23,018 bases of DNA from a virus. The stretch lies in IMG/VR virus record IMGVR_UViG_3300046524_000086, positions 1 to 23,018 of that record, one strand, 5' to 3'. Under the pieces are notes generated by a model. That model had not been told where the DNA came from and ran no database searches. It saw only the letters and a list, made by a program, of their open reading frames with translations. Positions 2,889 through 18,308 of the stretch are shown one piece after another (positions within the stretch are counted from its first letter, which is position 1; every line of letters begins with the position of its first letter). A program made the position numbers and the translations under genes.

Positions 2889-5411
2889 ATGGAACAGATG
2901 CAAGTAGCTGAAGCTAGGGAATACCAGCTTGCCGCCGCATCCCTGAAGAAGCGAGACAAGCGACAAGCCGCCAGCTTCAGCAAAGGATCGACTACCGGAG
3001 CAATGGCCCTTAGTGGCCGGCAGTTGCCCCGGCTAACTGAGTACCTGACAGAGAAGTGGAAGACCTACTGCCGAGCGGATGCCCCCGAGTTCAATCTTGA
3101 GAGGATGCTGCGGCAGCTGGAGCCCGAGGTTGTAGCTCTAGTGTGTTTGCAGAGCGGCATGCACGTAGTTGCCACACAGCCCAAAAAGCAAGTGAAGGCG
3201 TTCAGGCTGTTCGCGGACAACCTTGAAGCCGAGTGCTTCAGCGCGGGGTTGACGGTCGAGAACCAACGCCTAGCCAAGCGGGCGGCAAAATGGGCAACCG
3301 AGAAGCACTCCAATCAGAAGATGCGACAGGCGGCGGCCCGCGCTGTAGCTAAGAAGGCAGGGTTTAGCCGCGAAGAGTGGTCTGATGAGGACCGTATTAT
3401 TGCAGGTACGTGGTGCGCCAATCTGCTCACGCAGGGGCTCCCTGACGTATTCCATTGGGAAGAGTTCACCGAATGGAACAAGTCTCTCGGCATCCCCGAG
3501 AAGTACCGGGTGCTCACTGTGTCGGAAGAGGCTCATGGCTTCATGGCTGAGGCGATCAAGGACATGATCCTTCGGCGCCCGGTGTGGCTGCCGAGGCTGA
3601 CCCCTCCCGCGCCATGGGTTAGCTATAAGCAGCGCCCCTCCGACGACACCCGCGTGCGCCAATCGGTAGCGCTGATCAAGGCGCACAACAACGACCAGAT
3701 TGCAGAGATCAAGAAGGCGATAGCTGATGGCACGATGGCGCCCGCGCTCAAGGGCATCAACACGCTGCAAGCCGTGCCCTTCCAGATCAACACTTGGCTG
3801 TTGGACGTGATGGATCAGGTGCAGGCTAACGGCCTTGTGGTCCCCGGGTTCACCGTGCCCGATAAACTTGAGGTCCCCGCGAAGCTCACAGAGGAGCAGT
3901 GGAACGCGCTAGGACAAGACGAGCGCAAGCTGGCTAGCGAGGAGCGCTACTCTGCGCAGAAGCTCAACCGGCAGCGGCACAGCGACTTGACGCTGTTGGC
4001 TCTGGACATGGCCGAGGCGCACAGGTTGGCCGAGGTACCCGAGTTCTACATGGGCATGACGATGGACTTTAGGGGCCGCGTGTATCCGTTACCGCGCTTC
4101 AATTTCCAGCGGGGCGATCATGTGCGGAGCCTGTTTCTGTTTAGGAACGGGCTTCCGATTGGCGAAAAGGGTACACATTGGCTACGAGTACATGTTGCCA
4201 ACTGTTGGGCCCAGAAGGCTCCCGGCGAGGATACCGGGCTCGACAAGAAACCAATAGCTGAGAGGGTACAATGGACGAAGGACAACGAAGAGACCCTGCG
4301 GGGGTACGTTACGTCACCGCTGACCAACTTAGGATGGAGCAAAGCCGACAGCCCGTTCCTGTTCCTTGCGGCTGCACGCGAATTAATGACTGCTATCAGC
4401 GAGGGGGCGGACCATCCGTGTCATCTACCTGTCAGCTTCGACGGGTCTTGCTCAGGACTCCAGCACATGGCCGGGGCAACGCTGGCTGAGGAAGGCCGCT
4501 TCGTGAACCTAACGGACAACGAAGTCCCGCAGGACATCTACGCCATTGTGGCTAAGGTCGCGCGCCGTATGGTCGAGGAGGACGCAGCGGGCCAGGACGA
4601 AAAGAAGCGCAAGTTTGCTCAGCTGTTCCTTAGCTACAAAGGCGGCAAGGGTATCGACAGGAAGCTGTTGAAGCGCTCGACCATGACGTTCTGCTATAGC
4701 TCTGAGGCTAACGGTATGGGCGATCAGTTCTTTGAGGACCTGATGACCCCACTGCAAGCCGATGCCGTGCGCAACAAGACGCCTCACCACTTCGGGACCG
4801 TCAAGGAGCAGGCGGCTGCGGCTCGCTACATGGGCCGCGTGGCCTATGCGGCGATCACTGATGTGGTGCGGAAGCCTGCGGAGGCCATGGACTTCCTCAA
4901 GGCTCTCGCGGGCGTTATGGCGCACGAGGGGAAGCCGGTTAGCTGGGTGACACCGGCAGGCATCCCTTGCATCAACCGCTACCACGAGACCAAAACGAAG
5001 AGGCTTAGCCTGTGGCTGCACAATGAGCGTCTACAGGTGTACGTGGCCACGGGAACGGAAGCACCTCTCTTGAAACGGAAGTGCCAGCAGTCGATAGCGC
5101 CGAATTGGGTGCATTCGATGGACGCGGCCCATTTGCTCCTGACAGCGGGGGCGTGCGCCGACGAAGGCATTACGGACATCGTTACTGTCCATGACTCATT
5201 TGGTTGCCTTCCGGCACATGCTGGCAGGTTCAATCAAATCATTCGGGAGCAGTTTGTGTTGATGTATCAGAGGGATGACCTTCTAACATGCTCACGTACT
5301 ACAGCAAGCGCTCAGTTGTCAGAAGCAAACCAACGGCGACTACCACCGCTTCCGACCAAAGGCCAGCTGGAGTTGAGTGAAGTCCTGCGGGCGAAGTATG
5401 CCTTTGCCTGA
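2889..5411 (+). CDS. Single-subunit DNA-directed RNA polymerase, T7 type
   Basis: Transcribes phage genes from phage promoters. The T7 RNAP catalytic residues align: Asp518 (SFDGSCSGLQH, T7 Asp537), Lys595 and Tyr603 (KRSTMTFCYSS, T7 Lys631/Tyr639) and His768-Asp769 (VHDSFG, T7 His811/Asp812). The C-terminus PLPTKGQLELSEVL...YAFA matches the T7 ending, including the final Phe-Ala. Length 840 aa against 883 in T7. The specificity-loop region (about residues 708-735) differs strongly from T7, so the promoter sequence is expected to differ. The start at 2889 is preceded by GAAGGGG. Residues TCSRTTASA near the C-terminus, encoded by the second 23-bp repeat, replace a segment that in T7 reads ADFYDQFAD, without length change. 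Confidence 0.97.
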   Translation: MEQMQVAEAREYQLAAASLKKRDKRQAASFSKGSTTGAMALSGRQLPRLTEYLTEKWKTYCRADAPEFNLERMLRQLEPEVVALVCLQSGMHVVATQPKKQVKAFRLFADNLEAECFSAGLTVENQRLAKRAAKWATEKHSNQKMRQAAARAVAKKAGFSREEWSDEDRIIAGTWCANLLTQGLPDVFHWEEFTEWNKSLGIPEKYRVLTVSEEAHGFMAEAIKDMILRRPVWLPRLTPPAPWVSYKQRPSDDTRVRQSVALIKAHNNDQIAEIKKAIADGTMAPALKGINTLQAVPFQINTWLLDVMDQVQANGLVVPGFTVPDKLEVPAKLTEEQWNALGQDERKLASEERYSAQKLNRQRHSDLTLLALDMAEAHRLAEVPEFYMGMTMDFRGRVYPLPRFNFQRGDHVRSLFLFRNGLPIGEKGTHWLRVHVANCWAQKAPGEDTGLDKKPIAERVQWTKDNEETLRGYVTSPLTNLGWSKADSPFLFLAAARELMTAISEGADHPCHLPVSFDGSCSGLQHMAGATLAEEGRFVNLTDNEVPQDIYAIVAKVARRMVEEDAAGQDEKKRKFAQLFLSYKGGKGIDRKLLKRSTMTFCYSSEANGMGDQFFEDLMTPLQADAVRNKTPHHFGTVKEQAAAARYMGRVAYAAITDVVRKPAEAMDFLKALAGVMAHEGKPVSWVTPAGIPCINRYHETKTKRLSLWLHNERLQVYVATGTEAPLLKRKCQQSIAPNWVHSMDAAHLLLTAGACADEGITDIVTVHDSFGCLPAHAGRFNQIIREQFVLMYQRDDLLTCSRTTASAQLSEANQRRLPPLPTKGQLELSEVLRAKYAFA
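5285..5307 (+). repeat. 23-bp direct repeat, copy 2 (inside RNA polymerase 3' end)
   Basis: Identical over 23 bases to 2853-2875; identity stops sharply on both sides. Here it is coding (Thr-Cys-Ser-Arg-Thr-Thr-Ala of the polymerase), about 105 bases before the stop codon. Together the copies bracket nearly the whole polymerase gene. Confidence 0.7.
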
Positions 5412-13023: not shown

Positions 13024-13496
13024 CACTCTATCTCGACCTCGACGGGGTCTTAGCTGACTTCGACCGGAGGGCTGGGTACCGCATGGATACCGACAACATC
13101 TACAAGTACGAGTTCGTTTGGGGCACAGGGAAGTTCTGGGACAAGATCAACGAGGACCCGGAGTTCTTCCTCAACCTCGGGCCGACGCCGGACTGTTACG
13201 ACTTGCTGGAGGCTGTTGGCCACCTTAATCCAATCATCCTGACCGCGCTCCCGAGCAGCAACAGCGATGGTGTTGACCGGCAGAAGCGCGCATGGGTGAA
13301 GCAGCACCTTGGGGGCTACGAAGTCATTACCTGCCTTACCAAGGACAAGCCGAACTACTGCAAGCCCGGGGATATCCTGATCGATGACCGCGCGGTCAAT
13401 CGAGATGCATGGATAGCTAAGGGCGGCATCTACATCATTCACACGACAGCCGCGCGCTCCATTGGGGCGCTTCAGGCATTGGGGATTATCGACTGA
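13020..13496 (+). CDS. HAD-family phosphatase, 5'(3')-deoxyribonucleotidase-like
   Basis: Likely dephosphorylates nucleotides. The HAD motif I is MTLYLDLDGVLADFD (nucleophile Asp6, acid Asp8); ILTALPSS fits motif II and DILIDDRAVN the metal-binding motif IV. 158 aa, as for phage 5'(3')-nucleotidase-like HAD proteins. The ATG at 13020 (GGAGA upstream, ATGA overlap) is chosen because it places motif I at the N-terminus. It neighbours a predicted dATP/dGTP diphosphohydrolase-domain protein, suggesting a shared role in the dNTP pool. Confidence 0.82.
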   Translation: MTLYLDLDGVLADFDRRAGYRMDTDNIYKYEFVWGTGKFWDKINEDPEFFLNLGPTPDCYDLLEAVGHLNPIILTALPSSNSDGVDRQKRAWVKQHLGGYEVITCLTKDKPNYCKPGDILIDDRAVNRDAWIAKGGIYIIHTTAARSIGALQALGIID

Positions 13497-14047
13497 TGAT
13501 CTACGAGGCAAAGAAGGGCGACAAGGTACGTTGCATTGAAAGCTACGAAGGGGGCTCCTTTTCCGAAGGAACGATTTACAAGCTGCGCGAGGACTTCAAC
13601 AGCACTGACCCGTTTGCTACTGTCCGCGTGACTAAGGACGACCTGGGCTCGAAAACCAACGGTTGGGGCCAGAGTTTCTTTGAGCTTGTGCAGCGGGACA
13701 CCGTCCCAGCTAAGCCGCTGGTCCGCACGTTCTCCACCGGTGCCACCCGTGACACCGACGAGAACAAGCTGGACTTCGAAGGCTTCCTCTCGCCGCTCGT
13801 TCTGGAAGAGTTTGCCAAGTACATGCACGGCAAGCGCAAGATGCCTGACGGCTCCATGCGTGACAGTGACAACTGGCAGAAGGGCATTCCGCTCGATGCC
13901 TACATGAAGAGCATGTTCCGGCATTTCTTCGCGGTCTGGAAGAGCCACAGGGCAGGCACTACCACCGCAGAGGAAGACTTGCTTGGCCTGTTCTTCAATG
14001 TGCAGGGTTATCTGCACGAGACCCTGAAGGCGAAAAAGGAATGCTGA
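13496..14047 (+). CDS. dATP/dGTP diphosphohydrolase N-terminal-domain protein
   Basis: The block FSTGATRDTDENKLDFEGFL followed by DSDNWQKGIPLDAYMKSMFR is the signature of the phage family named 'dATP/dGTP diphosphohydrolase, N-terminal' (about residues 78-165). Ahead of it is a ~60-residue segment (AKKGDKVRCIESYEGGSFSE...) that looks like a small SH3-like barrel, an added domain. No HD-type phosphohydrolase or MazG catalytic domain can be seen after it, so enzyme activity cannot be assumed. It begins in TGATG after the HAD gene. Confidence 0.75.
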   Translation: MIYEAKKGDKVRCIESYEGGSFSEGTIYKLREDFNSTDPFATVRVTKDDLGSKTNGWGQSFFELVQRDTVPAKPLVRTFSTGATRDTDENKLDFEGFLSPLVLEEFAKYMHGKRKMPDGSMRDSDNWQKGIPLDAYMKSMFRHFFAVWKSHRAGTTTAEEDLLGLFFNVQGYLHETLKAKKEC

Positions 14048-14226
14048 TCTACGACCCACCATCAGGATGGCGCTACGGCTTCCCAAGGCCGTACCGGCCG
14101 CTACCCGGGGAGACATTGGCGCAGACCCTGCTGCGAGATGGTTACCCGCAGAAGGAAATCGACCAAGGAGGCGACAAACACGTTCGTTTCCTTGGCACCA
14201 AGGAAGAGCTGAAGGCGAAACAATGA
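14041..14226 (+). CDS. Hypothetical phage protein (61 aa)
   Basis: Starts ATG at 14041 with AAAAAGGA just upstream, overlapping the previous stop by 7 bases. The Pro/Tyr-rich start (MLIYDPPSGWRYGFPRPYRP) followed by LAQTLLRDGYP is a pattern known from small conserved phage proteins of unknown function. Overlaps the next gene by ATGA (14223-14226). Confidence 0.65.
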   Translation: MLIYDPPSGWRYGFPRPYRPLPGETLAQTLLRDGYPQKEIDQGGDKHVRFLGTKEELKAKQ

Positions 14227-14540
14227 TCAAAGCATCTGAAGCGGCCGTTGAGGCCGAACTGCGAACCAAGGGGCTCAATGCCCCGAGACTCACCCCGCAG
14301 GATATCGACGCAACTATCGAGCATGAAGAATACTGCCGATTCGGCGAAACGGCTACCGTGTGCGCCCTCACGCTGCGTAACGGCTACGTTGTGATTGGTA
14401 AGAGCGCGGCAGCATCGCCGGAGAACTTCGACGCGGCGATTGGTCGCCGCATTGCCCGCGACGATGCCCGTAATCAAATCTGGGAGCTTGAGGGCTACCT
14501 CCTGCGCGAGCGGCTTAACGACCCATGGCCTGCCGAGTAG
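14223..14540 (+). CDS. Gp49-like family phage protein
   Basis: 105 aa from the ATG at 14223 (ATGA overlap). The pattern IDATIEHEEYCRFGETATVC, then LRNGYVVIGKSAAASPENFD and IWELEGYLLRERL matches the phage Gp49/Gp66-like family: beta strands with NG[YF]-x-V-x-G-x-SA and a C-terminal IW-x-LEGYLL helix. The biochemical role of the family is not established; it is common in early regions of tailed phages. Confidence 0.8.
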   Translation: MIKASEAAVEAELRTKGLNAPRLTPQDIDATIEHEEYCRFGETATVCALTLRNGYVVIGKSAAASPENFDAAIGRRIARDDARNQIWELEGYLLRERLNDPWPAE

Positions 14541-14788
14541 ACCGAGACGCGCACGGCACTAGCTACCAAATACCAGCAGCAGAGACCATCAAGACCCCGG
14601 GGCGAACAACGCTTCCGGGGTCTCCGCTGTTGGACGTGTGGTGGGCTAGGCGTTTCAAGAGCCGCGCCGAAGAAACCCTTATCATCAAACAAGAGAACAA
14701 TTCGGATCGCGCTGACGTGGTCGAGCTAACGCTTGGCCAAGTCTACGACCTGATTGCTGCTCTCAACAAGGCAGTAGAGAACACATGA
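14525..14788 (+). CDS. Hypothetical protein (up to 87 aa), start uncertain
   Basis: The frame from ATG 14525 runs through a strong hairpin (14592-14623) and ends in an ATGA overlap with the next gene. The C-terminal ~50 residues (RFKSRAEETLIIKQENNSDR, then VVELTLGQVYDLIAALNKA) look like a genuine beta-alpha domain. The first ~35 residues look less protein-like, so a start at GTG 14636 after the hairpin is a serious alternative (50 aa). Function unknown. Confidence 0.5.
   Translation: MACRVDRDAHGTSYQIPAAETIKTPGRTTLPGSPLLDVWWARRFKSRAEETLIIKQENNSDRADVVELTLGQVYDLIAALNKAVENT
14592..14623 (+). other. Strong 9-bp hairpin, no T-run
   Basis: AGACCCCGG (14592-14600) and CCGGGGTCT (14615-14623) are perfectly complementary around a 14-base loop. 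No T-run follows, so it is not a standard intrinsic terminator. It lies where the coding character of the overlapping frame is poor, so it may be an intergenic RNA element such as a processing or pausing site. Confidence 0.5.
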
Positions 14789-14967
14789 GCAAGTTCAATT
14801 TCGAACACGAGACCCCTATCGACGGCAACGAAGTCTCTGAGCGCCTCAAGGGCATCCTCAAAGCCGCTGGCGTCAAAATGCTCATCACTGAAGCTCGCGT
14901 GTCGGCCATCTTCCCTGACGGCTCCGCCGCGCGCTACCAAGAACTCCACATGGACACCGAGCAGTAA
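14785..14967 (+). CDS. Hypothetical small protein (60 aa)
   Basis: ATGA overlap with the preceding gene. Helix (EVSERLKGILKAAGVKML) followed by beta strands (ITEARVSAIFPDGSAARYQEL). Two bases separate its stop from the next ATG. Not recognised. Confidence 0.6.
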   Translation: MSKFNFEHETPIDGNEVSERLKGILKAAGVKMLITEARVSAIFPDGSAARYQELHMDTEQ

Positions 14968-14969
14968 CA

Positions 14970-15323
14970 ATGACCCCTGATGTGGAAGTAGTGCTACGCA
15001 CCCTTCCTCGCAGGATCAAAGTTGGTGCCTACGATTGGCGCATCAAGGTCGATCCGGGTCCTAGTGAGGACTACGGAGAGACCAACTTCGACAAGGCCGA
15101 GATAACTATTTGGCCAGCTAACCATCAGTCTCCCGAGCGCCTAGTGGGTACCGTTATCCACGAGCTGCTGCATGTCATCTACGACATCGAGGAGATTGAC
15201 GGCGCAGTCGGAGACCGAGAAGAGACCACCGTCTCAGGTTTCGAGACCGGCCTTGTCTCGCTGTTCCGCGACAATCCCAAGCTACTCAACTGGATCAAAC
15301 GAGGACTGAAGAAATCACCATGA
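14970..15323 (+). CDS. Small HExxH zinc metalloprotease-like protein
   Basis: 117 aa. The segment VIHELLHVIYDIEE holds a full HExxH motif (His64, Glu65, His68), preceded by beta strands with WRIKV and DKAEITIWP as in compact SprT- or ImmA-like phage metallopeptidases. A downstream Glu (in REETTVSGFETGL) could be the third zinc ligand. The substrate is unknown. It begins 2 bases after the previous gene and overlaps the next by ATGA. Confidence 0.7.
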   Translation: MTPDVEVVLRTLPRRIKVGAYDWRIKVDPGPSEDYGETNFDKAEITIWPANHQSPERLVGTVIHELLHVIYDIEEIDGAVGDREETTVSGFETGLVSLFRDNPKLLNWIKRGLKKSP

Positions 15324-15475
15324 GCGACAACAACAACACTACATCTGTCAACTTCCGACTCGTGCCGTTCACCAGCGGCCTACTCATGCTCATCTATGCG
15401 TTCTTCTGGCCTGAAGGCTACGGGGCGTGGCTGGGCACCATCGTGCGGTGCTTCCGTGAAGCTGCGGGGCTCTGA
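15320..15475 (+). CDS. Small membrane protein (51 aa)
   Basis: ATG overlaps the previous stop (ATGA at 15320-15323). An Asn-rich hydrophilic start (SDNNNTTSVNF) leads to one hydrophobic segment (FTSGLLMLIYAFFW) and a short tail with Cys-Phe-Arg. First of four overlapping or abutting tiny membrane proteins before the TerB-like gene. Function unknown. Confidence 0.55.
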   Translation: MSDNNNTTSVNFRLVPFTSGLLMLIYAFFWPEGYGAWLGTIVRCFREAAGL

Positions 15476-15687
15476 TGCCCAGCGAACTAAAGTTTCTCTG
15501 CGCATTCATCGCGGGGTTCATCGCCCTGTTCGTCGGCCTCTTCTTCCTCGTGAATTGGGGGAACGAGGTTAACTGCCGCGCCACCGCTGAGGTGATGGGG
15601 CTCCCTTATCACTACAGCGTCAACACGCCCTGCATGGTTCAGCTGGGGAGCCAGTGGTTCCCGCTGCACTCCATCCGCGTCAACTAG
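15475..15687 (+). CDS. Small membrane-anchored protein (70 aa)
   Basis: Starts in a TGATG overlap. Residues about 6-27 (KFLCAFIAGFIALFVGLFFL) form a transmembrane helix or uncleaved signal anchor, followed by ~40 mainly polar residues with two Cys (NCRATAEVM, TPCMVQLG) that could form a disulfide if exported. This suggests a periplasmic or extracellular-facing tail. Function unknown. Confidence 0.6.
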   Translation: MPSELKFLCAFIAGFIALFVGLFFLVNWGNEVNCRATAEVMGLPYHYSVNTPCMVQLGSQWFPLHSIRVN

Positions 15688-15695
15688 GGGCCCCA

Positions 15696-15776
15696 ATGTC
15701 CGAGCCTGAAATCATCGTGGGCATGGGCTGCCTCACGCTCATCATCTGCTGTGTCTTGATGGTCTGGGAAAAATGA
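15696..15776 (+). CDS. Tiny membrane protein (26 aa)
   Basis: ATG at 15696, preceded by AGGGGCCCCA. One helix (IIVGMGCLTLIICCVLMVW) flanked by Glu and Lys, with three Cys inside the membrane segment. The stop overlaps the next ATG (ATGA). Evidence is the overlap pattern and hydrophobicity only. Confidence 0.4.
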   Translation: MSEPEIIVGMGCLTLIICCVLMVWEK

Positions 15777-15886
15777 TCGTCGCTGTCCTAGCTAACCACG
15801 TCCTCGACTTCTTGGGCGTGGTCTTCATCGTTTCCGCCGCTGTGAAAATCGCACGCGGCTATCCCCTCTCTCGCTGGTTCTTCTGA
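15773..15886 (+). CDS. Tiny membrane protein (37 aa)
   Basis: ATGA overlap with the preceding ORF. Hydrophobic helix (VLDFLGVVFIVSAAVKIA) followed by a basic end (RGYPLSRWFF), an amphipathic membrane anchor pattern. A small hairpin, GCCGC-AAA-GCGGC (15888-15900), follows it before the TerB-like gene. Function unknown. Confidence 0.4.
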   Translation: MIVAVLANHVLDFLGVVFIVSAAVKIARGYPLSRWFF

Positions 15887-15916
15887 AGCCGCAAAGCGGC
15901 ACGAAAGGAATACACT

Positions 15917-16351
15917 ATGGGTCTGTTCTCGAAAATGTTCTCCGACGCTCGCTCAAAGATCAACAGCTATGTTGGCGACGACGCCTTCCTGAAGGGCGTT
16001 GCGTCAGCCGCAGCTAACGTGACCGCCGCTGATGGCGTGGTCGAAGACAGCGAAGTTGACGCTGCCATCAAGGGTATGCAGTCGAACGCTACCGTCTCGG
16101 CTTCGTTCAACTCGACGCAGATCAGCGATGCCTACGGGCTCGCCCTGATCCGAGCGAAGACCCGTGCGGGCCGCATGGAGAACAAGCGCAACATCGAGGC
16201 TCTCGTGGGCCGTGACGCCACCGTGCGGCAGGACGTGTTCCTGATTGCGGCTGACGTTGCCGATCAGGGTGGCATCGGTCCCGAGGAAGAGAAGGTGCTG
16301 CTGGACATCGGCGGCCTGCTGAACCTCGACGCCAAGAAGCTGCTGGGCTGA
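15917..16351 (+). CDS. TerB-like tellurite-resistance family protein
   Basis: 144 aa, all-helical. The block FLKGVASAAANVTAADGVVEDSE (only positions 24-46) matches TerB: a helix, then Asp39-Gly and Glu46 as in 'AADG-x-x-x-x-x-E'. A second, similar unit is AADVADQGGIGPEEEK (Asp116, Glu123), giving the internal two-fold repeat of TerB that holds acidic metal-binding sites. In known Ter systems TerB is a cytoplasmic protein that associates with membrane TerC. Here a TerC-family gene follows after one tiny membrane ORF and a structured leader. AAAGGA sits 8 bases before the ATG. Whether it binds metal ions in this phage is unknown. Confidence 0.8.
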   Translation: MGLFSKMFSDARSKINSYVGDDAFLKGVASAAANVTAADGVVEDSEVDAAIKGMQSNATVSASFNSTQISDAYGLALIRAKTRAGRMENKRNIEALVGRDATVRQDVFLIAADVADQGGIGPEEEKVLLDIGGLLNLDAKKLLG

Positions 16352-16428
16352 TGCCGCTGCTCGCCTACTTGGTCACAGTGGCGATGCCGCTGATGGTCGT
16401 GCTGCTCCTCTACGTGTGGCGTAGCTAA
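16351..16428 (+). CDS. Tiny membrane protein (25 aa)
   Basis: Starts in a TGATG overlap with the TerB-like stop. Almost entirely hydrophobic (LLAYLVTVAMPLMVVLLLYV), ending Trp-Arg-Ser, i.e. a single membrane helix. Translational coupling to the TerB-like gene suggests it works with it, for example as a membrane anchor; this is inference. Confidence 0.45.
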   Translation: MPLLAYLVTVAMPLMVVLLLYVWRS

Positions 16429-16433
16429 CTTAT

Positions 16434-16615
16434 GCCCCGGTAAGCCTGCGCGTGGGCCCCGGGCGCCGGTTGGACGGCGAAACACTCTGATCCAACTGAG
16501 ACCCTAGGCTCTGCCTGTACGGGGTCGCAGCGGGTGAAAGCCCCGCACCGCTCTCCTCCCCAAAGGTTGTTGACCTTCCCACGGCCCGTAGAAGTCGGGA
16601 GGGGGAGGGGAGCGG
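16434..16615 (+). ncRNA. Structured 5' leader of terC-family gene, candidate cis-regulatory RNA
   Basis: The 212-base gap before the TerC gene folds by eye into an ordered structure. A closing stem CCCCG (16435-16439) / CGGGG (16520-16524) is stacked with AGCCT (16443-16447) / AGGCT (16506-16510) around an inner stem GTTGGA (16469-16474) / TCCAAC (16491-16496). Next come GCGGG (16530-16534) / CCCGC (16542-16546) and a long 14-pair hairpin (16548-16561 with 16602-16615, one G-T) that resembles an expression platform. The gene's AAAGGA and ATG follow 15 to 25 bases later. TerC-family genes are known to be controlled by yybP-ykoY manganese riboswitches, and a separate 'terC' RNA motif has been described from Alphaproteobacteria. 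The yybP-ykoY hallmark GGGGAGUA is missing, so the terC motif or a new class is preferred. Confidence 0.65.
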
Positions 16616-16640
16616 CTTATTCTCATTCAAAGGAAACATC

Positions 16641-17303
16641 ATGGACACTATGTTCTGGGCCGCGCTTCTCGGCATCGTCTGGATTGACTTGTTGCTCTCC
16701 GGCGACAACGCGCTCGTTATCGCGATGGTCAGCCGCCAGCTGCCAGCTAATCAGCAGAAGTGGGGCATCATTGGGGGCACCATTGCGGCTATCGTCCTCC
16801 GGGTGGCCATGGCGTTCTGCGCTGCGTCCCTCCTTGGCGTACCTGGGCTCAGCCTCGTGGGCGGCGTCTTCCTGCTCTACGTGGCAGCTAAGCTCGTCAT
16901 GGGCGAGGACGAAGCAGAGGGCGCTGTGAAGCCCGCTGTGAACCTGTGGGCGGCTATCGTCACCATTGCGGCTGCGGACGCCAGCATGAGCCTCGACAAC
17001 GTCATGGCTATCGCTGCGCTGTCCAATGGCCAAATGCTGCTCATGGCCCTCGGCGTGCTCCTGTCGATCCCGCTGGTTATCGCTGGCGCCGCTATCATCT
17101 CCAAGATCATCGGTCGCTTCCCGGTCCTCGTGTGGGCCGGTGGTGCCCTGTTGGCTTGGGTTGCTGGGGGCATCATCGCGGCTGACCCGTGGGCCGTTAC
17201 CTACGTTGACCACTACATGACAGCGACGGCCTGCGTGGTTGTCGTGCTGGTCGGTGGTTGGTTTGCCAAACAGGATGAAGCTGATGCTCGAATTGCCGGT
17301 TGA
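16641..17303 (+). CDS. TerC/YjbE-family integral membrane protein
   Basis: 220 aa with about seven hydrophobic helices. The TerC-family signature occurs twice, in inverted halves: SGDNALVIAM (residues 20-29, Asp22-Asn23) and SLDNVMAIAA (117-126, Asp119-Asn120); the acidic/Asn pairs in these helices are the expected ion-coordinating residues of the LysE/TerC fold. An acidic loop (GEDEAEGAV) separates the halves. Related proteins (Alx, YkoY, MeeF/MeeY) export Mn2+. The size and sequence are closest to the riboswitch-associated YjbE type. A Shine-Dalgarno AAAGGA precedes the ATG. An intact bacterial-type transporter is unusual in a T7-like phage. Export of Mn2+ or a tellurite/stress role remain possible; neither is shown. 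Confidence 0.88.
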   Translation: MDTMFWAALLGIVWIDLLLSGDNALVIAMVSRQLPANQQKWGIIGGTIAAIVLRVAMAFCAASLLGVPGLSLVGGVFLLYVAAKLVMGEDEAEGAVKPAVNLWAAIVTIAAADASMSLDNVMAIAALSNGQMLLMALGVLLSIPLVIAGAAIISKIIGRFPVLVWAGGALLAWVAGGIIAADPWAVTYVDHYMTATACVVVVLVGGWFAKQDEADARIAG

Positions 17304-17484
17304 TTGGAACGACCCGACGCCGACCCGCACCACACATGCTCCCTATGACGTACAGCGGACCCCACGAGGGTCCGTAGTCGTTTGTAGGTCCCATGTGGTC
17401 ACCGACGAACTCAAGGACGGAGAGGCCCGCGCGCTGGCTATCGCCCTCAACATGGAATTTGAAACAAGGATGCTGAAACAATGA
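17275..17484 (+). CDS. Hypothetical small protein (69 aa)
   Basis: ATG at 17275 overlaps the TerC 3' end by 29 bases; ATG 17284 is an alternative start. The first part is beta-rich and Pro/Thr-rich (ELPVDWNDPTPTRTTHAPYD), then VQRTPRGSVVVCRSH, then a helix (KDGEARALAIALNMEFETRM). The stop overlaps the next gene as ATGA. Not recognised. Confidence 0.55.
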   Translation: MKLMLELPVDWNDPTPTRTTHAPYDVQRTPRGSVVVCRSHVVTDELKDGEARALAIALNMEFETRMLKQ

Positions 17485-17648
17485 ACGAACGCGAACACAC
17501 ACCCTACCACGAGCGGCGGCTTGAGCAGCAGATGCTGGACGCGCTTCTGCGCATTGAGGAGTTGCTCACAGCTTTCCTTGTGCTGCTCCCGGTACAGGAG
17601 CCTGCGAAGGAGCCCGAGGCCGAGAAGCCCAAGGGCAAGCGTAGGTGA
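17481..17648 (+). CDS. Hypothetical small protein (55 aa)
   Basis: ATGA overlap with the previous gene. An amphipathic helix (RRLEQQMLDALLRIEELLTA) passes into a hydrophobic turn (FLVLLPVQ) and a Lys/Glu/Pro-rich tail (PAKEPEAEKPKGKRR). A coiled-coil dimer with a charged, disordered tail is likely. Function unknown. Confidence 0.5.
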   Translation: MNEREHTPYHERRLEQQMLDALLRIEELLTAFLVLLPVQEPAKEPEAEKPKGKRR

Positions 17649-17824
17649 AGCTACAGCAGTTCGACTGCTCCGAGCTGGTCGAGCAGCTAGCTGAAGTTAT
17701 CGAGCAGTACATGGAGACGCACCCGGACTCCACGCATGACGAGGTCGCTGCGACTGTCAGCTACGTGCATGGGTGCATCTTCCGGCTAGCTAAAGACGCA
17801 CCACCAGCTAACAAATTACATTGA
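17645..17824 (+). CDS. Hypothetical small protein (59 aa), GTG start
   Basis: GTG at 17645 overlaps the previous TGA (GTGA). Two helices (SELVEQLAEVIEQYMET and THDEVAATVSYVHGCIFRLA). The only other start in frame is late, so GTG is preferred. Not recognised. Confidence 0.5.
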   Translation: MKLQQFDCSELVEQLAEVIEQYMETHPDSTHDEVAATVSYVHGCIFRLAKDAPPANKLH

Positions 17825-17830
17825 GGGCCT

Positions 17831-18244
17831 ATGGGATACTACGACCGTTTTGACTGGAAGAACAACATCGCGTTTGAAGACCTGAAGGGCCGAACGATCA
17901 AGGCTATCGAGCGCGGCGACGACGAACTGAAGTTTGCGATGGACAATGGCGATTTGTTCGTCATGTACCACCATCAGGACTGCTGCGAGAGCGTCTACAT
18001 CGAGGACATCTGCGGAGACCTTGAAGACCTGATCGACACGCCGATCCTAGTGGCCGAAGAGCGCACGCAGGATGACACGGAGAGCGATGAGGCGCGCTAC
18101 GGCGATGCCATGTGGACGTTCTATGAACTCCGCACCATCAAGGGCTCTGTGACCATCCGTTGGCACGGTAGCTCCAATGGCTACTACAGCATCAGCGTCA
18201 GCTTTGATAAGCTGAAGGCCGAAGAGCAGCGGCTCGCCGCGTAA
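17831..18244 (+). CDS. Conserved phage protein, DUF7448-like
   Basis: 137 aa, preceded by GAGGGCCT. The pattern FEDLKGRTIKAIERGDDELK, then YHHQDCCESVYIEDICGDLE and PILVAEE is characteristic of a widespread phage family of unknown function (my recollection is DUF7448). A basic strand RTIKGSVTIRWHG and a C-terminal beta strand follow. Last + strand gene before the bidirectional terminator. Confidence 0.7.
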   Translation: MGYYDRFDWKNNIAFEDLKGRTIKAIERGDDELKFAMDNGDLFVMYHHQDCCESVYIEDICGDLEDLIDTPILVAEERTQDDTESDEARYGDAMWTFYELRTIKGSVTIRWHGSSNGYYSISVSFDKLKAEEQRLAA

Positions 18245-18252
18245 CGAAAAAA

Positions 18253-18285
18253 CCCCCTAGGGTCCATTTCTGGATTCCTAGGGGG
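18253..18285. terminator. Bidirectional intrinsic terminator between convergent units
   Basis: CCCCCTAGG (18253-18261) pairs perfectly with CCTAGGGGG (18277-18285), extended inside by TCCA/TGGA around loop TTTC. Six A precede it (18247-18252) and six T follow it (18288-18293), so it acts on transcripts from either side. It separates the + strand gene ending at 18244 from the - strand gene ending at 18309. Confidence 0.92.
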
Positions 18286-18308
18286 AATTTTTTAGTCAAC
18301 GCTAGTGC

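Follow-up and report, generated by a model that had tools for sequence, protein, structure and literature searches.

The native function of ter genes is obscure, and the DNA analysed here raises the question of what a TerB-like and a TerC-like protein, encoded side by side, would do in a T7-like phage. The window, i.e. the whole stretch that was analysed, is a linear virus record of 23,018 bases, a fragment of 23 kb. Its plus strand encodes a tyrosine integrase (positions 1558-2754; PHROG 1, PF00589), typical of a temperate-type phage, a T7-like single-subunit RNA polymerase (2889-5411; PHROG 414, E 1e-175, and PF00940), an SSB, an endonuclease, a primase-helicase, a DNA polymerase, an exonuclease and a 5'(3')-deoxyribonucleotidase. 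The ORFs after this block, on the minus strand, encode a tail or hydrolase-like protein, endonuclease VII and an endolysin. The single-subunit RNA polymerase, found together with primase-helicase, DNA polymerase, SSB and exonuclease, places the window among the T7-like phages, and the profile matches of polymerase and integrase bear out an earlier note on this DNA, which had read it as a T7-like phage with an integrase; an integrase was also found in 20 of 28 relatives. TerB, a 25-aa ORF and TerC lie near the end of the plus-strand block, at positions which confirm those given in that note. Upstream of TerB, the same block contains a small HELLH-motif metallopeptidase-like protein (14970-15323, plus strand; PHROG 1233, with HELLH visible in the translation), found at 83-88% identity in the closest relatives only (L002, L003, L005-L007, L015 and L017).

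The 220-aa integral membrane protein encoded at 16641-17303 (plus strand) is with certainty a member of the TerC family, YjbE subfamily. It matches PF03741 with an E value of 2.5e-41 (141.8 bits, cutoff 27.8), the NCBIfam model TIGR03717 (YjbE) with 184.1 bits (cutoff 134.8) and PHROG 7180; the YkoY and Alx models stayed under their cutoffs. Two charged membrane motifs, corresponding to the metal-site positions D22-N23 and D113, D119-N120, do not vary among 23 homologues, in agreement with the earlier description of an intact TerC-family protein with both ion-binding motifs. Its predicted model is poor (pLDDT 56). The link to tellurite resistance, also drawn earlier, is a weak reading, because this TerC belongs to the YjbE subfamily and is not the long TerC of ter operons.

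The 144-aa helical protein encoded at 15917-16351 (plus strand) is a divergent TerB. In a Pfam profile search it scored, taken alone, 16.4 bits against PF05099, below the cutoff of 24.4, but 18 of 21 orthologues match the TerB profile (best E 4.8e-12) and one orthologue locus passes the PF05099 cutoff with 46 bits; the window protein itself matches PHROG 632 'tellurite resistance' (E 1.6e-21). The profile check proposed in the earlier note was thus clear for TerC, and for TerB it gave matches over most of the orthologues, with the window protein below the cutoff. The proposed structure prediction agreed with TerB structures: the AlphaFold (AF2) model (pLDDT 82) is all-helical, and its top matches are 2h5n, at Z 11.6, and the tellurite resistance protein 2ou3 (COG3793), at Z 8.5, with unrelated entries at Z of 5.6 or less. 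Since helical bundles can reach middling Z values by chance, the match of this predicted fold supports the assignment and is no proof alone. Neither the TerB nor the TerC alignment gave a direct sequence match to solved structures, and the comparison of the TerB and TerC profiles revealed no relation between them. In the alignment of 21 TerB sequences, D39, E46, D116 and E124 are invariant, so that both repeats hold acidic residues. The acidic units had been placed at Asp39/Glu46 and Asp116/Glu123: the TerB identity and the first three residues stand, but the second acidic residue of the second unit is Glu124, and Glu123 varies.

Two small membrane proteins accompany the pair. The 25-aa membrane ORF was already listed in the earlier note, which had missed the most conserved extra component, a 37-aa single-TM microprotein (NHxLDxxG...KIxRxxPxxRWFF) encoded directly upstream of TerB at 15773-15886 (plus strand). 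The latter holds this place in each of the 17 T7-like loci that carry the pair, with constant length, 46-97% identity and a conserved RWFF-type end. The same microprotein is found in phages of about 120 kb, where it immediately precedes a TRAP-TAXI solute-binding protein whether or not TerB-TerC is present; it is thus not exclusive to the pair and may not be a TerBC component. The conservation of these 37-aa membrane microproteins suggests an undescribed family. The 25-aa single-TM ORF (16351-16428, plus strand) has an ATG overlapping the TerB stop (TGATG), and a hydrophobic ORF of 23-31 aa, weakly conserved in sequence, is similarly placed in 16 of the 17 T7-like loci (TGATG, ATGA, GTGA, TTGA, or a start at most 7 nt before), an overlap that suggests translational coupling. 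Median dN/dS values, rough because they are pairwise estimates that include distant pairs, are 0.33 for TerB, about 0.29 for TerC and 0.32 for the 37-aa microprotein, and indicate purifying selection on both TerB and TerC.

As separate observations, the 37-aa microprotein precedes a TRAP-TAXI-like solute-binding protein in L091, L095, L096, L098, L099, L102, L103, L109, L113 and L114 (BDU-MI-1-like genomes and EBPR siphovirus 2), and a protein of about 77 aa (MFSKIKAFFVxVEHDVEAIIANFT...), not present in the window, lies between TerB and TerC in L002, L003, L005, L006, L007 and L017.

In scans of viral contigs the TerC query found 18 loci and the TerB query 23, and the 32 distinct contigs obtained all carry both genes, TerB first, in the same order, although scans of close relatives may overlook divergent single-gene cases. 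The situation which, according to the earlier note, would speak against a pair, with the two genes carried apart and never adjacent, was not seen among them. A T7-like RNA polymerase is present in 15 of 28 tested contigs, at 41-89% identity, the rest being fragments or larger phages without it; in each of the 15, the pair lies on the strand of the polymerase gene. Neither TerB nor TerC was detected in 48 other records with a T7-like RNA polymerase (18 of at least 30 kb), collected by a polymerase profile scan, nor in another 11 records with the 37-aa gene, most of which are related to the ~120-kb Bradyrhizobium phage BDU-MI-1, with the unrelated EBPR siphovirus 2 also among them; the TerB and TerC profiles did respond to known positives. 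The occurrence of the pair is thus all-or-none.

The ~120-kb group also provides empty sites. A segment of 1.5-2.7 kb with the pair sits after the ribonucleotide reductase gene, and the same flanks are 0-7 nt apart in relatives (L013 and L109, for example, have 1487 and 3 nt between flanks); in the T7-like phages, relatives without the pair have diverged too far for such a comparison. Judging from these comparisons, two unrelated phage groups appear to have gained the pair as a single functional unit and to have kept it as such. The earlier view of a functional pair is upheld by same-order presence, all-or-none occurrence and the two groups; that of a T7-like peculiarity is not, as the pair is also present in relatives of the 120-kb Bradyrhizobium phage. 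A two-gene unit under selection in small and large phages, with empty-site relatives, offers a minimal natural system for a possible TerB-TerC partnership, and suggests that the handling of metal at the membrane may be of importance in lytic infection.

The nearest cellular TerB genes were found at 25 loci, 24 of them in Methylobacterium, at 42-52% identity, and none has a TerC within 10 kb. Of 91 genomes of Methylobacterium's order, 50 contain TerC and one this TerB type, on another contig. The pairing looks phage-made. In the phages, TerB and TerC are 15 to 734 bp apart, and the gap can hold other ORFs. The trees of the two proteins are discordant, with five different combinations of the two TerB types with the three TerC types, which points to recombination of alleles with both functions kept. 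Beside this, the site after the ribonucleotide reductase gene in L010, L012, L013, L008 and L018 is apparently one of variable cargo (inserts of 1.5-2.7 kb). In the 113-kb record L016 (7303-10260), a 985-aa transposase (PHROG 7951) is encoded some 1.6 kb away from the pair; the carrier of this copy may be a transposon or plasmid rather than a phage.

The 150 nt preceding terC (16468-16617, plus strand) form a real but sporadic structured RNA leader, with stems P1 (16468-16497), P2 (16500-16526) and P3 (16530-16546) and a long hairpin (16549-16614). P1 and the long hairpin have z scores of -3.8 and -3.0, and the whole 217-nt stretch folds only slightly better than its shuffles (z -1.8). The core of the leader is found again in three further types of T7-like contig (L003, L015 and L017). 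Across the window and these contigs, P2 appears as GACCC/GGGTC, GGTCCC/GGGACC, GGCTC/GAGCC and GGCC/GGCC, and P3 as GCGGG/CCCGC or GAGGG/CCCTC, with pairing kept. Double changes preserve pairing in P2, P3 and the long hairpin among the four sequences, the hairpin being found only in the window and L015; covariation in four aligned sequences is suggestive rather than statistical. The structured leader of the earlier note is therefore retained as far as the pairing of P2 and P3 is concerned, but most relatives lack it, so that the pair does not depend on it. It may serve in RNA processing or as an attenuator.

No Rfam family matched the window at gathering score. A Mn2+ riboswitch (yybP-ykoY) was discarded as the identity of the leader, being absent also from a permissive scan of 16340-16700; the sole permissive match, to twister-sister (15.9 bits, gathering score 34), was treated as chance. 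A hairpin between TerB and TerC is likewise no general feature: by a strict stem test it is significant in the ~120-kb phages and L016 only, not in T7-like ones. A wider search with the leader DNA pattern returned the same phages and three contigs without a homologue of the terBC region.

The pair is embedded in the replication and nucleotide block that follows the phage RNA polymerase, and no sigma-70-like promoter was found at 13400-18300 by a scan that is weak for alphaproteobacteria. This location, the shared strand of the polymerase gene and the lack of such a promoter favour lytic-phase over prophage expression, and for the same reasons the protection of the lysogen suggested in the earlier note is not favoured.

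In our best explanation, which we consider about evenly balanced between right and wrong, the locus is a two-gene accessory cassette of TerB and a YjbE-type TerC, gated by TerB and devoted to the handling of divalent metal (Mn2+) in the lytic phase. In T7-like phages it would also include one or two single-TM microproteins. The analysis itself establishes the identities of the genes, their linkage, their all-or-none occurrence, their insertion as a unit and the purifying selection on them; the metal, the gating, the timing and the part of the microproteins belong to the proposal. As far as sequences can tell, the cassette probably tunes metal at the host membrane during infection. TerC, placed in the host inner membrane, would move or hand over divalent metal, most likely Mn2+; the acidic, cytosolic TerB would bind metal or a small ligand, dock on TerC and gate it; the microproteins would act as small membrane subunits or regulators. 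Such a cassette would be active during lytic growth, adjusting metal and membrane state of the host. The metal reading follows from the YjbE assignment, which points to metal. In Bacillus, TerC proteins show Mn efflux activity and supply exported enzymes with metal, and loss of YjbE in B. subtilis had no effect on growth in the conditions tested (PMC10550928). In Klebsiella, terC influences sensitivity to Te, Zn, Mn and phages, and the same source cites a complex of TerC and TerB for bacterial ter loci (PMC12054061). Free reassortment of the TerB and TerC types argues against a highly specific interface between the two proteins. Adjustment of Mn2+ during infection had been proposed earlier; Mn2+ is kept as a candidate through the YjbE assignment, but no Mn2+ riboswitch was detected in front of terC.

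An extended form of this explanation, which we regard as unlikely, has the 37-aa microprotein, TerB, the TM microprotein and TerC acting as a four-part, phage-specific membrane system that actively redirects host Mn2+ or another divalent metal in lytic infection, the microproteins gating the TerC transporter.

Rather unlikely, in our judgement, is a module of competition or exclusion, in which the pair would alter the membrane and block superinfecting phages or colicin-like agents. Such a role has been proposed for Ter genes in jumbo phages (Iyer et al. 2021, PMC7824862), and loss of terC in Klebsiella leads to larger phage plaques (PMC12054061); however, PADLOC returned no match, the signal-making and sub-membrane parts known from complete Ter systems did not turn up in the scanned ORFs, and a position in the replication block would be odd for an exclusion gene of the lysogen stage. 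The same position weighs on lysogenic conversion, by which prophage expression would make the host resistant to metals, oxidants or tellurite. The integrase of the window and its relatives, and the filing of both PHROGs (632 and 7180) as moron/auxiliary metabolic genes, speak for it. Strand and block are nevertheless shared with lytic replication genes, with no sigma-70-like promoter, and a YjbE-type TerC is found here without TerD, whereas published work cited in PMC12054061 makes TerC-TerD the minimal tellurite unit; we hold this explanation to be improbable.

It would be harder still to see here two unrelated host genes that came to adjoin by chance and are passively carried. Reassortment of the types and the variable gap with its inserted ORFs would fit such an origin, but a single gene was never seen alone in the 32 contigs, nor in the 59 records lacking both, selection on the two genes is purifying, and the pair recurs in two unrelated phage groups, so that we consider passive carriage very improbable. 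The TerB-gated metal cassette remains the reading we prefer.

Compared with the ter operon (terZABCDEF), the window has TerB and TerC families side by side, as in bacteria, but no TerD, TerZ, TerA or TerF was seen, and two microproteins are added; scanning the ORFs of the window, itself a fragment, against PHROGs revealed no TerD-type genes and no TelA/TerF partners. The TerC of the window is of the short YjbE type (220 aa), whereas the long TerC of ter operons has 346 aa (PMC11256456). From the Mn2+ transporters and metal chaperones of the TerC/YjbE/YkoY group (MeeF, MeeY), to which its score over the TIGR03717 cutoff and its invariant metal site relate it, it differs in showing no yybP-ykoY riboswitch, in being paired with TerB and in being phage-borne.

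Ter genes are known in jumbo phages (PMC7824862) and in Pseudomonas phages (PMC11256456), and TerB or TerC occur in different Paracoccus phages (PMC6536676). Jumbo and large phages (Acinetobacter ME3, Caulobacter jumbo phages, Pseudomonas Otagovirus) also carry TerC with other Ter genes (PMC7824862), but these are TelA, TerD or vWA proteins; the two annotated neighbourhoods that were inspected show no TerB-TerC pair, and the phages are not T7-like. Rhizobium phage RHph_I1_18 and Paracoccus phage vB_PyeM_Pyei1 have a similar TerB (34-39% identical), but a standalone one, with no TerC annotated within 4 kb. A literature search of incomplete coverage found no description of a TerB-TerC pair in T7-like phages, in line with the earlier claim that a compact two-gene version had not been described there, and the combination of the pair with microproteins in phages appears to be undescribed.

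The records are mostly soil metagenome fragments, as far as their source can be inferred, and the hosts of phages with the pair probably belong to the Hyphomicrobiales. A 23-nt exact repeat, AACATGCTCACGTACTACAGCAA, lies at 2853-2875, before the RNA polymerase gene, and at 5285-5307, inside its end. It is not expected by chance (zero occurrences in shuffles), and possibly represents phage promoters or a recombination site.
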